Below, one piece after another: positions 25,802 through 30,839 of a DNA stretch of 43,033 nt. The translations under genes and the position numbers were made by a program. The notes beneath the pieces were generated by a model. The model was not told the DNA's origin and did not search any database. It worked only from the letters and a program-made list of their open reading frames with translations. Location of the stretch: the NCBI GenBank assembly GCA_027366615.1, contig DAHXNG010000071.1:1-43033 (forward strand), written 5' to 3'. The DNA comes from Nitrospirota bacterium (lineage in GTDB: Bacteria > Nitrospirota > Leptospirillia > Leptospirillales > Leptospirillaceae). Position 1 is the first letter of the stretch, and every line of letters begins with the position of its first letter.

Positions 25802-27259
25802 TCAGAGGGCGTCGGTCATCTCGTCGATGACGTAGCGGACGATCTCGGCCATGGTCGGATGGATGTGAAGGATCCTCTGATAGGTGTCGACGGTGGCACG
25901 AAGGGAAATTGCCACCCCGATCAAGTGGATAAGATCGGCGGCTCCCGGGCCGAACATTTCCGCGCCCAGGATCTCCCGGGTCTTGGCGGAGGCGGTGATC
26001 TTCAGTGCGCCCTCCGTCTGTCTGTTGACGATAGCCCGGCCGAGCTCGGAAAAGGGAAGATAGCCCGTCAAAACGGGAATGGCGCGTTCCCGGGCCTCCG
26101 ATTCGCTGATTCCGACCCGCGCAAACTCCGGCTCGGTGAAGATCGAAAGGGGAACAGGACGTTCTTCGACGATGCGCGGCGGGTCGAGGACGGCGTTTGT
26201 CCCGGCCATCTCCCCGTGGTAGGTGGCGAGGTTCAGGACGGGGAGGTGGCCTGTCACGTCACCGGCGGCAAAGATGTGAGGGTTTGATGTGCGGAGGCAG
26301 GGGTCGACGGCGATCGCCCCGGCATGGGAAAGGACGATTCCGGCGTGTTCGCAGCCAATCCCCGTGACGGCAGCCTGTCGGCCGGTCGCGAAGAGGATCC
26401 GGTCGGCCTCGAGGCGGAGGGCGTCTCCGTCTTTTCTTGTGGCATGGAGGATCGGCCGGCCGCCTGATGTCTCGAAGCGGTGGGCCGTCATGCCGAGATG
26501 CACCCTCAGTCCGCTTTTCTCAAGTGCGGCGATATATCCCTCCCCGATTCGAGGGTCGACGTTCGGGTTCCAGTGATGGGAGATCTCGACGACCTCGACC
26601 CGGACCCCCAGCATTGAGAGGTATTGTCCAAGCTCGAGTCCTACCGGACCTGCCCCCATGACAACCACCGACCGGGGAAGGGTGAGACATTCGAGGAGGT
26701 CGTCGGAGGTCCAGAGCCACTCCCGGTTGATCCCGGGGATCTCCGGGATGCGGGGGGTGGATCCCGTGGCAACGATGGCCCGGTCAAAGTGAAGGACCTC
26801 GTCTCCGACCCTGGCGGAGCTGTGGGAGAGGAATGTGGCAGGAGCGGGAATAAATCGTATGCCCGGGTTCCCGGTGACGCTCTGGTGAGCCGACTCGGCC
26901 ATCTCGCGGATCATGGAGTTCTTCATCGCCACGATGGTTGGAATGTCGATACGAAGAGATCCTGCGTCAAGGGAGATCCCCAGATCGGAAAGGCCCGTCC
27001 TGAGAAGGTGGAGGACGTGGGCTGGCCGGAGAAGGGCCTTGGAGGGCATGCATCCCTTCAGGATGCAGAGCCCTCCGAAGGGAGGCGGAGAGGCCAAAAC
27101 AACCTCCGCTCCGAGACTTGCCGCCTGTCTTGCGGCATAGCGCCCGGCCGATCCGGCGCCGATGACGAGAATCTTTCTTTTTTTCAAGGGAACCTCAGGG
27201 GGATTCGGGTGAGGAGTCTTCTGGGCCCGGGTTGCGCCTTCTCTCCGTAGAGAGAGCAT
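25802..27259 (-). CDS. FAD-dependent pyridine nucleotide-disulfide oxidoreductase (dihydrolipoamide dehydrogenase/mercuric reductase-like)
   Basis: KILVIGAGSAGRYAARQAASLG, redox CILKGC motif (CX4C), VVMGAGPVGLELGQYLS, IFAAGDVTGHLPVLN, C-terminal HIHPTMAEIV. Confidence 0.9.
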   Translation of the reverse strand: MLSLRREGATRAQKTPHPNPPEVPLKKRKILVIGAGSAGRYAARQAASLGAEVVLASPPPFGGLCILKGCMPSKALLRPAHVLHLLRTGLSDLGISLDAGSLRIDIPTIVAMKNSMIREMAESAHQSVTGNPGIRFIPAPATFLSHSSARVGDEVLHFDRAIVATGSTPRIPEIPGINREWLWTSDDLLECLTLPRSVVVMGAGPVGLELGQYLSMLGVRVEVVEISHHWNPNVDPRIGEGYIAALEKSGLRVHLGMTAHRFETSGGRPILHATRKDGDALRLEADRILFATGRQAAVTGIGCEHAGIVLSHAGAIAVDPCLRTSNPHIFAAGDVTGHLPVLNLATYHGEMAGTNAVLDPPRIVEERPVPLSIFTEPEFARVGISESEARERAIPVLTGYLPFSELGRAIVNRQTEGALKITASAKTREILGAEMFGPGAADLIHLIGVAISLRATVDTYQRILHIHPTMAEIVRYVIDEMTDAL

Positions 27260-27370
27260 AACTGAAATGGCCGAGAGAAGTCATCTTGAGGACGTTTTTC
27301 AGGCGGCAGGGGCCGCTTTGGGGCGTTTTGAAAGAGTTTTTGTGCGAATTGGGATTTTTCGAGAGGGATA

Positions 27371-27399
27371 TTGCCTTTTTTTAACTCACCGTGTAATCT
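27371..27399 (+). promoter_or_regulatory. Candidate sigma70 promoter for the glnA leader
   Basis: TTGCCT-N17-TAATCT. Confidence 0.4.
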
Positions 27400-27514
27400 T
27401 TGTGGAGATCGGTATCGCGAAAAACGCATCCAGACTTTCCAGGCCAAAGACAGGCCGCCAGGAAAGGATCATCGGCGATGTTCACGCAGAGACGGTGATC
27501 GGGAGCGAGAATAA

Positions 27515-27581
27515 GGGGCGAAGACAAGGGAGTCTTCATGAGTCGTCATGGAGGCTCTTTTTTTGTTTCGCCCCCTTTTTT
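27515..27581 (+). terminator. Nested intrinsic terminator in the glnA leader
   Basis: Inner 12-bp stem GAGTCTTCATGA-GTCG-TCATGGAGGCTC (27530-27557) then T7. Outer stem GGGGCGAA (27515-27522)/TTCGCCCC (27567-27574) then T6. Confidence 0.85.
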
Positions 27582-27671
27582 ATGTTCAGGCGGAGGCGGG
27601 ATCCGGGACCAGGTCCCACTCCGCCCCGGGTTTTCCCATCCCATGACCATCATTTAAGGAGCAGGATTCTC

Positions 27672-29081
27672 ATGACCCCGAAAGAAGTGCTTGACTATGC
27701 AAAGAAGAACAATGTTCAGATCATCGATGTGAAGTTTACCGATCTGTTTGGAACCTGGCAGCACTTTTCCATTACGCCCCTCCAGCTTTCCGAGGAGACC
27801 TTCGAGGAGGGCCTGGGCTTCGATGGGTCCAGTATCCGCGGTTTTCAGACCATCAACGAATCCGACATGCTCCTTATTCCCGATCCCAAGACTGCCTTCC
27901 TCGATCCCTTTACCCAGGTGCCGACGCTTTCCCTTATCTGCAACATCAAGGACCCCATCACGGGTGAGTCCTATGCCAAGGATCCCCGCTATATCGCGCA
28001 GAAGGCGGAAAACTACCTCAAGAAGGTGGCCGACATCTCCTACTGGGGCCCCGAGTGCGAGTTCTTTGTCTTCGACGACGTCCGTTACGGATCGGGACCG
28101 AACTTCTCCCACTACGCAGTTGACTCGATCGAGGGGGCCTGGAACACCGGCCGGGAAGAGGATCCCAACCTGGGCTACAAGATCCGCCACAAGGAAGGAT
28201 ACTTTCCCGTTCCGCCGACCGACACCCTGCAGGATCTCAGAAGCGAGATGGTCCTGACCATGGAGCAGATCGGGATCCGCTGCGAGGTCCATCACCATGA
28301 GGTTGCCACCGCCGGACAGTGCGAGATCGACATGCGCTTCGACACCATGACCAAGATGGCCGACAATGTGATGAAGTACAAGTATGTCGTGAAGAATACC
28401 GCCGTCAAGTACGGAAAGACGGCCACATTCATGCCCAAGCCTCTTTTTCAGGACAACGGCTCCGGCATGCACGTCCACCAGAGCCTCTGGAAGGCCGGCA
28501 AGAACCTCTTCTACCAGAAGGGCGGTTACGGAGACATTTCGGAGATGGCCCGCCACTACATCGGCGGACTGATCCATCACGCTCCGGCACTTCTGGCCTT
28601 CATCGCCCCCACGACCAATTCCTATCGTCGTCTGGTTCCGGGCTATGAAGCTCCGATCAACCTCATGTACTCGAAGCGGAACCGTTCCGCCTGCGTCCGC
28701 ATCCCCATGTACTCGAAGAGCGAGAAGTCCAAGCGTATCGAGTTCCGGACTCCCGACCCCTCGAGCAACCCGTACATCGTCTTTGCCGCCCTTCTCATGG
28801 CCGGTCTTGACGGCGTCGAAAGAAAGCTCGAGCCTCCGGCTCCGCTCGACAAGGATCTCTACGAGCTGACCGACCGGGAAAAGAAGAAGATCAAGCAGAT
28901 GCCGGGAAGCCTCGAACAGGCCCTTCAGGCACTCGAGAAGGATCATGACTTCCTCCTCAAGGGAGGGGTGTTTACCTCCGAGCTGATCGAGACCTGGATT
29001 CATGAAAAGATGAAGAAGGAAGTGGATGCAGTCCGTCTTCGTCCTCATCCCCATGAGTTCTTCCTGTATTACGACATCTAG
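27672..29081 (+). CDS. glnA: Glutamine synthetase type I (GSI-beta-like)
   Basis: GLGFDGSSIRGFQ, NGSGMHVHQSLW, APTTNSYRRLVPGYEAPINL, DLYELTDREKK adenylylation-site region; AAGGAG RBS upstream of ATG 27672. Confidence 0.97.
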   Translation: MTPKEVLDYAKKNNVQIIDVKFTDLFGTWQHFSITPLQLSEETFEEGLGFDGSSIRGFQTINESDMLLIPDPKTAFLDPFTQVPTLSLICNIKDPITGESYAKDPRYIAQKAENYLKKVADISYWGPECEFFVFDDVRYGSGPNFSHYAVDSIEGAWNTGREEDPNLGYKIRHKEGYFPVPPTDTLQDLRSEMVLTMEQIGIRCEVHHHEVATAGQCEIDMRFDTMTKMADNVMKYKYVVKNTAVKYGKTATFMPKPLFQDNGSGMHVHQSLWKAGKNLFYQKGGYGDISEMARHYIGGLIHHAPALLAFIAPTTNSYRRLVPGYEAPINLMYSKRNRSACVRIPMYSKSEKSKRIEFRTPDPSSNPYIVFAALLMAGLDGVERKLEPPAPLDKDLYELTDREKKKIKQMPGSLEQALQALEKDHDFLLKGGVFTSELIETWIHEKMKKEVDAVRLRPHPHEFFLYYDI

Positions 29082-29160: not shown

Positions 29161-29197
29161 GGGCCTGGACAAAGAGATTTGTTCAGGCCCTTTTTTT
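29161..29197 (+). terminator. Rho-independent terminator of glnA
   Basis: GGGCCTGGACAAA-GAGA-TTTGTTCAGGCCC (13 bp, one G-U) followed by T7. Confidence 0.93.
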
Positions 29198-29216: not shown

Positions 29217-30839
29217 ATGAATCACGAGCAGAAAATCATTCGGGAGCTGACGGCCTTTTTTGAGATCAGCCGGGAGCTTGCGAGCTCTCCGGACCTCGAC
29301 AGCGCCCTGGCCCACATTCTGGGAATCATGGACTCCCAGCTCAATCTCCACCGGGGAGCTATCCTCCTGCTCGATGCGCAGACCGACGAGCTCATGACGG
29401 AGCTTGCCTTCGGGATGTCGGAGGAGGAGAAGCGGAAGGGGCGTTTCAAGGCCGGGGAGGGGATCAGCGGGACGGTGCTTTCGACAGGACAGCCCATCGT
29501 CGTCCCCGACATCGATGCCGAACCCCGCTTTTTGAACCGCACCGGGAGTCGACGGGGGAAGGGACGGGCAAAGACGGCCTTCATTGCCGTTCCCCTGATT
29601 TTTCAGGGGAAGAAGCTGGGCGTTCTCTCGGCCGATTGCGACATGTCCAAGGAAGAGCGGGACCTCGAAGAGGACACACGCGTGCTCTCGATCATCGGGT
29701 CGACCATTGCCCAGGCGGTGCTTCTTCGCCAGCGGCTCTCCCTGGAAAACCGGAAACTCCTTGAGGAGGCCTCCCGCCTCGAGCATGCCCTGAAGGACCG
29801 GTATGCGATCGAGGGGTGGATCGGCCGCTCCAAGGTCATGCACCAGATCGCAGAGAGCGTCCACCAGGTGGCGGGAAGCCGGGCGACCGTCCTGATCCTG
29901 GGAGAAAGCGGGACCGGCAAGGAGGTGATCGCCAAGGCGCTCCACTTCATGAGCCCCCGGGCCAAGAACCCCTTCGTACAGATCAACTGTGCCGCCATCC
30001 CCGAGACCCTTCTTGAGAGCCAGCTTTTTGGCCACGAGAAGGGGGCCTTCACCGGAGCCCATATCTCCCGCCCGGGCAAGTTCGAGGCGGCCGACGGAGG
30101 GACGATCTTTCTCGACGAGATCGGAGAGATCTCCCCGGCTGTACAGGTAAAGCTCCTTCGGGTCCTCCAGGAGCGTTCGGTGGAGCGACTGGGAGGTCAG
30201 CGGGTCATCCCTGTCGACGTTCGGATCGTTGCCGCCACGAACAAAAATCTTGAGGAGATGATCCGCCGGAACCTTTTTCGGGAGGACCTTTACTATCGGC
30301 TGAACGTCGTACCGCTTGTCCTGCCGCCCCTTCGGGCGAGACGGGAAGATATTCCTCTGCTTCTCGACCATTTTCTGGAGCGATTCAACCGGGATAACGG
30401 ACGGACTGTCGAGCTCAGTTCGGGGGTCCTCGATCTTTTGATCGATTACGAATGGCCAGGCAATGTCCGGGAGCTTGAAAACATGGTGGAAAGGCTTGTG
30501 GTGATGGCCCGGGAGGACCGGATCACAGGGGAGGACGTCAGGAGGGCGATGACGCTCTATCCCCGTCCCTCCCGGATTGAGACCTCCCGGGAGCCATCGG
30601 AAGGGACCCCAAGGCCGAGTGTGGAGAGAGACGGGGAAATCCACGGGGAGGAGCCGGAGGTTCGGGCCAGGGGGCTACTCGGGGCGGTCAGCTCCCTTGA
30701 GCGGGAGCAGATCGAGTCTGTTCTGAAGCGCTACGGATATGTGAAGACCCGGGCGGCCAGGGCTCTCGGGGTGACTCCGCGCCAGCTTCGCTACCGCATG
30801 ATCAAGTACGGGATCCCCGACGACCTGCCGGAGGAGTGA
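29217..30839 (+). CDS. Sigma54-dependent transcriptional activator (GAF-AAA+-Fis HTH; NifA/NtrC family)
   Basis: GESGTGKEVIAKALH, GAFTGA loop, GGTIFLDEIGEIS, RLNVVPLVLPPLRARREDIPLL, C-terminal AARALGVTPRQLRYRMIKYGI. Confidence 0.95.
   Translation: MNHEQKIIRELTAFFEISRELASSPDLDSALAHILGIMDSQLNLHRGAILLLDAQTDELMTELAFGMSEEEKRKGRFKAGEGISGTVLSTGQPIVVPDIDAEPRFLNRTGSRRGKGRAKTAFIAVPLIFQGKKLGVLSADCDMSKEERDLEEDTRVLSIIGSTIAQAVLLRQRLSLENRKLLEEASRLEHALKDRYAIEGWIGRSKVMHQIAESVHQVAGSRATVLILGESGTGKEVIAKALHFMSPRAKNPFVQINCAAIPETLLESQLFGHEKGAFTGAHISRPGKFEAADGGTIFLDEIGEISPAVQVKLLRVLQERSVERLGGQRVIPVDVRIVAATNKNLEEMIRRNLFREDLYYRLNVVPLVLPPLRARREDIPLLLDHFLERFNRDNGRTVELSSGVLDLLIDYEWPGNVRELENMVERLVVMAREDRITGEDVRRAMTLYPRPSRIETSREPSEGTPRPSVERDGEIHGEEPEVRARGLLGAVSSLEREQIESVLKRYGYVKTRAARALGVTPRQLRYRMIKYGIPDDLPEE

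Follow-up and report, generated by a model that had tools for sequence, protein, structure and literature searches.

ANTAR antitermination of nitrogen genes

Several nitrogen genes are known to be governed by antiterminator proteins whose output domain is ANTAR: NasR acts at the nasF leader of Klebsiella, AmiR at amiE and NasT at nas, and in Geobacter sulfurreducens the ANTAR-type response regulator GnfR acts on nitrogen genes. Control of glnA is often discussed at the level of initiation (NtrC with sigma54) or in terms of glutamine riboswitches.

By definition a canonical ANTAR target has two hexaloops, those of hairpins P1 and P2, set 5–12 nt apart (PMC3369931). For the EutV/EutW-controlled eut leaders of Enterococcus faecalis both hairpins and the 5–12 nt linker are required (PMC3369931, PMC8934654), and in vitro antitermination was lost once the linker was made 20 nt longer (PMC8934654). 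In the main text of Ramesh et al. (2012, PMC3369931) targets are predicted in diverse bacteria before genes for PII, ammonium transporters and glutamate and glutamine synthases; the search described there demanded the dual hairpin, and that main text names no Nitrospirota.

The locus considered here is the glnA leader on the forward strand of a 43,033-nt Nitrospirota contig from the family Leptospirillaceae, the whole of which we call the window. We judge it likely, with good confidence, that this leader is an ANTAR-type transcription antiterminator, and the case is built on mutually exclusive folds, conservation, covariation, co-occurrence with ANTAR genes and linkage in relatives. With the eut leaders (PMC3369931, PMC8934654) it has in common a P2 hexaloop with A1 and G4 that overlaps the 5′ arm of a terminator, and its candidate regulator shares with EutV an ANTAR domain having most of the same RNA-contact residues. 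It differs in that the conserved canonical P1 hexaloop 5–12 nt upstream is missing, that the target is glnA and that the likely regulator is a GAF-GAF-ANTAR or a nif-linked receiver-ANTAR protein rather than phosphorylated EutV. The targets of Ramesh et al. (PMC3369931), as its main text describes them, share both the RNA logic and the class of gene, glutamine synthetase included.

An ANTAR output domain and a leader terminator before nitrogen-assimilation genes are likewise common to the NasR, AmiR and NasT systems, whose sensor domains (NIT in NasR) and targets (nitrate or amidase genes) are different. The mechanism is thus of a kind already known and apparently undescribed in Nitrospirota; a literature search found no paper joining ANTAR, GAF and Nitrospira.

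Architecture of the glnA leader

The glnA gene (27672–29081) encodes a type I glutamine synthetase of 469 aa (Pfam PF00120 and PF03951) that is 96–99% identical to that of the nearest MAG relatives and 82–84% identical to that of Leptospirillum; its start is kept in relatives and is preceded by the Shine-Dalgarno sequence AAGGAG (27656–27661). A GC-rich hairpin, GGCGGAG...CTCCGCC, is predicted by folding between the terminator and the Shine-Dalgarno sequence (27589–27625). The frame of glnA is open for some 135 codons upstream of the start (27267–27671), probably by chance, and an N-terminal extension of GlnA was rejected since this frame, open back to 27267, is unconserved and the start and Shine-Dalgarno sequence are conserved. 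Downstream lies a gene for a NifA-like GAF-sigma54 activator-HTH protein (29217–30839, forward strand; Pfam), matches to which adjoin glnA in many relatives; a strong terminator picked by the terminator scan (29161–29190) separates it from glnA, and it is probably outside the switch.

A sigma70-like promoter for glnA, TTGCCT (27371–27376) and TAATCT (27394–27399) with a 17-nt spacer, would start transcription near 27406. Its match to consensus is weak and it is not listed by the sequence scan, but it occupies the same, homologous place in every relative whose upstream sequence reaches far enough, the other genera having TTGACA-N17-TAGAAT. Between the −10 box and P2 there are 33 to 184 nt, depending on the leader, and the sequence upstream of the terminator is likewise variable across the family; what the leaders keep in common is P2 and the terminator. 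Within the highly variable sequence 5′ of P2, an alignment of six subclade leaders nevertheless has one near-invariant block, ATCGGGAGCGAGAATAAGGGGC (27498–27519).

Gene identity and leader position might have suited a glutamine-sensing riboswitch (glnA RNA or the downstream-peptide motif) or ribosome-mediated attenuation by a leader peptide, yet either seems to us hardly credible. No Rfam family, the glnA RNA/glutamine riboswitch included, matches at the gathering threshold, and the relaxed threshold adds nothing but hairpins of viral microRNAs, with scores far short of gathering; the 33–36 nt between −10 box and P2 in the other genera are too short for an aptamer. A leader peptide was rejected, the only mini-ORF noticed (ATG 27479, six codons) not being kept in relatives.

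The terminator: fold, conservation and covariation

The intrinsic terminator (27526–27564) has a core stem of GAGTCTTCATGA (27530–27541) and TCATGGAGGCTC (27546–27557), 12 bp with two G-U pairs, closed by the loop GTCG (27542–27545), extended from 27526 by A-U and G-U pairs and followed by T7 (27558–27564). A sequence-only reading of this DNA had described the inner hairpin exactly so, and had also placed correctly the outer stem and T-run considered below and the position of the whole on the coding strand of glnA about 90 nt before the ATG (the distance from 27581 to the ATG at 27672 is 91 nt). The oxidoreductase gene upstream (25802–27259) is divergent, as that reading had it, and for this reason a terminator of the upstream gene was rejected. 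What escaped it were the alternative hairpin P2, the promoter and the ANTAR regulator.

At −43 kcal/mol, the predicted fold of the 91-nt region is far more stable than those of its shuffles (mean −23.9, z −5.9; none of 200 as low). The inner hairpin was also picked by the terminator scan, which found little more than background (9 against 7.0 expected), and the inner terminator is kept in 36/36 leaders of the family; the hairpin thus stands above chance because of its conservation, not by the scan alone. Over the 19 distinct leaders, terminator pairs 3, 6, 10, 12 and 13 vary on both sides. When the alignment is confined to the window's genus, 97% of its cells are paired as against 38–65% in slid versions, and two-sided covariation within that genus alone is found at one terminator pair only.

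In the complete 2.56-Mb Leptospirillum genome G004 the best match to a covariance model made from the window's genus is the glnA leader, and the model also recovers the leaders of other family genera; the further matches inspected in G004 are plain terminators without the P2 arm. Outside the family, the model matches a Fimbriimonadaceae locus (L080:1976-2026; 26.7 bits, E 0.007) just past the glnA match, where it probably meets an ordinary gene-end terminator.

An alternative hairpin, P2

Just 5′ of the terminator stem GAAGAC (27520–27525) can pair with GTCTTC (27532–27537) inside the terminator 5′ arm, leaving the hexaloop AAGGGA (27526–27531). This hairpin, P2 (27520–27537), and the terminator are mutually exclusive, the P2 loop and 3′ arm being the terminator 5′ arm with 12 nt common to both. 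In a scan for hairpins with an A-N-N-G-N-N loop whose 3′ part serves an intrinsic terminator, a P2 overlapping and excluding the terminator, with a stem of at least 3 bp and a hexaloop with A1 and G4, was found in 36/36 Leptospirillaceae glnA leaders (20/21 genomes). Certain loci represent one genome that is present in two collections, and, the species being related, the counts are not independent. The same scan found it in 1/62 other glnA leaders (L038, from another Nitrospirota MAG) and in 0/1000 dinucleotide shuffles.

The P2 loop is always AANGGN (AAGGGC, AAAGGC, AAGGGA or AAGGGG across the family, AATGGA in L038), with A1, A2, G4 and G5 invariant over the 19 distinct leaders, among which pair 6 is G-C, G-U or A-U and pair 4 is A-U or G-C. 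The GAAGAC arm is kept although the terminator does not require it. P2 is worth −4 to −6 kcal/mol against −14 to −27 for the terminator, and a weak P2 facing a strong terminator fits what is expected of a protein-dependent switch.

These features bear on the possibility of a constitutive leader terminator, which would release a short RNA of about 70–160 nt and allow a fixed read-through into glnA with no antiterminator protein. The presence of a strong promoter-proximal terminator in every relative speaks for it, but it leaves unexplained why the GAAGAC arm, which is no part of the terminator, is kept and why the AANGG loop is invariant, as well as the covariation of P2 and the linkage to ANTAR genes, and we hold it improbable. 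The suggestion of the sequence-only reading that a short RNA ends here is weaker, since the would-be RNA 5′ of the terminator is conserved neither in sequence nor in length. Its other suggestion, that glnA is controlled by termination or antitermination, is supported and can be made specific: P2 and the terminator are conserved and covary, with two-sided changes at terminator pairs 3, 6, 10, 12 and 13 and at P2 pairs 4 and 6, so that the proposed comparison of the stems in relatives did not refute it, and antitermination would be of the ANTAR type.

When G004 was scanned for other combinations of P2 with a terminator, loops of the A..G type gave 8 matches and other loop types 1–10; as this is within the range of the others, only glnA, with the highest score, stands out in that genome.

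The outer stem

In the window the terminator is enclosed by a further, basal stem of 8 bp, GGGGCGAA (27515–27522) with TTCGCCCC (27567–27574), followed by C and then T6 (27576–27581). The window's subclade has six leaders, all with this stem and with a compensatory change of G-C to A-U among them; the stem is absent from the rest of the family. That both stem and T6 exist, and that the stem covaries in the subclade, would accord with the earlier claim of two independent terminators nested in tandem. However, the T-run follows the stem in just 2/6 subclade leaders (T6 in the window and T5 in L003, with none in L004, L005, L006 and L021) and the stem is limited to this one subclade; the claim of a second terminator does not hold up well, and we regard it as very improbable. 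To judge from the sequence comparison, the outer stem is an extension of the terminator; as three bases of the P2 5′ arm (GAA) are tied up in it, it probably biases the leader towards termination.

The missing recruitment hairpin

Each leader was searched for a canonical P1, that is a hexaloop with A1 and G4 lying 5–12 nt before P2, and it is absent from nearly all those of the family; L012 (linker 11) and the outgroup L038 (linker 7) alone have one. Most relatives in the subclade of L012 have a 7-base loop at the P1 position, and the short leaders of the other family genera have nothing of the P1 kind. Folding of the window gives a P1-like hairpin (27435–27466), CTTTCC/GGAAAG with an inner GGCC-AAAGACA-GGCC and so a 7-base loop, whose inner stem ends 63 nt, and the whole hairpin 53 nt, before P2; it is thus outside the definition of P1, and may possibly be a displaced recruitment hairpin. 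With the canonical P1 missing, the leader is classed as a variant rather than as a full member of the ANTAR targets, and it would apparently work like an ANTAR antiterminator with one hexaloop.

ANTAR regulators and phylum-wide linkage

An ANTAR domain (Pfam PF03861, 63.6 and 75.4 bits against a curated cut-off of 27.3) is encoded in 19/21 genomes of the family; no ANTAR gene was found in the window's own assembly, which is 70% complete, or in one 64%-complete family genome. There are two kinds. One is GAF-GAF-ANTAR, in open frames of about 415–505 aa; in the loci read, its gene neighbours aroB. The other, receiver-like-ANTAR of about 215 aa, lies in the loci read between two PII-type (nifI-like) genes and nifV, as at L125 (G004:2501213-2504371) and L119, and is likely a nitrogen-fixation regulator. 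GAF-GAF-ANTAR keeps the equivalents of the EutV RNA contacts Arg142, Lys143, Tyr164, Met172, Asn173 and Arg175, among them the G4-stacking tyrosine and the methionine that acts as a plug, and differs at three others (Lys147 to Arg, Arg168 to Gln and Arg177 to Ser). In the genome of L038, the outgroup leader with the full dual hairpin, no ANTAR was found; this genome comes without a completeness figure.

The linkage of motif and protein extends through the phylum. In 296 Nitrospirota genomes matches to GACAANGGNGTC plus a following T6 were mapped with coordinates, all counts being at least those given, and a terminator was taken as strong at −16 kcal/mol or lower on folding of the listed strings. 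Among the matches listed, strong-terminator motifs are present in at least 43 genomes outside the Leptospirillaceae, all of them ANTAR-positive, and ANTAR-negative genomes have only weak folds. Also among the matches listed, the motif follows the ANTAR domain at 129–173 nt, on the same strand, in at least 13/16 genomes of family f18 (for example at G254:C1:1624120 and G190:C6:291557), in family f10 it lies 1.2–12 kb downstream of ANTAR, 120–240 nt after glnA or about 1.7–2.1 kb upstream of amtB, in families f25 and f31 it lies about 1.8–1.9 kb upstream of glnA, and in some genomes it is near amtB-PII-glnA. This independently supports the view that motif and ANTAR protein belong together, with counts inflated by the relatedness of species.

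Which ANTAR protein would act is a separate matter. Were it the receiver-ANTAR of the nif cluster, its place among PII-type nitrogen sensors beside nifV would be apt, and it is the only kind seen in G009, the closest relative (96% complete). Against this, G001, G007, G011 and G019 show GAF-GAF-ANTAR only and yet retain P2, and the motif-linked ANTAR genes elsewhere in the phylum are, among the matches listed, of about 420–500 aa, the size of GAF-GAF-ANTAR. Granted that the switch is real, we think it unlikely that the receiver-ANTAR is the acting protein; the regulator is most likely the GAF-GAF-ANTAR of the phylum, with the nif-cluster protein an alternative or a second input.

A model for the switch

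In the ANTAR-type mechanism we favour, RNA polymerase would start near 27406 from the sigma70-like promoter and, by default, the nascent RNA would fold as the terminator of 27526–27564, ending transcription near 27564, before glnA. An ANTAR protein activated by a nitrogen-related signal would bind and stabilize P2 via loop positions A1 and G4; with P2 held, the terminator could not form and polymerase would read into glnA. Here we infer from sequence the binding by ANTAR, the direction of regulation, the signal and both the start and the stop of transcription. In multi-omics of ammonium-rich Leptospirillum ferriphilum cultures glutamine synthetase is reported to be highly expressed (PMC5772234), so that a plain model in which ammonium turns glnA off may not be correct.

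Implications

If the above is right, these leaders let one ask, in a natural setting, whether antitermination can do with a single ANTAR hexaloop, a question left by the EutV–RNA structure (PMC8934654). GAF-GAF-ANTAR, an orphan sensor, gains a candidate target, and its signal becomes testable. It is conceivable, and we put it forward tentatively, that the Nitrospirota have a phylum-wide GAF-GAF-ANTAR regulon for ammonium assimilation which has been reduced to P2 only in the Leptospirillaceae, in which case co-transcriptional antitermination by ANTAR proteins would be able to dispense with the recruitment hairpin P1; the other families carrying the motif may include nitrifiers. The main switch of glnA would here be an antiterminator held by protein, in a phylum for which genetic tools are few, and an iron-oxidising cell of the Leptospirillum family could probably switch glnA on after transcription has begun.
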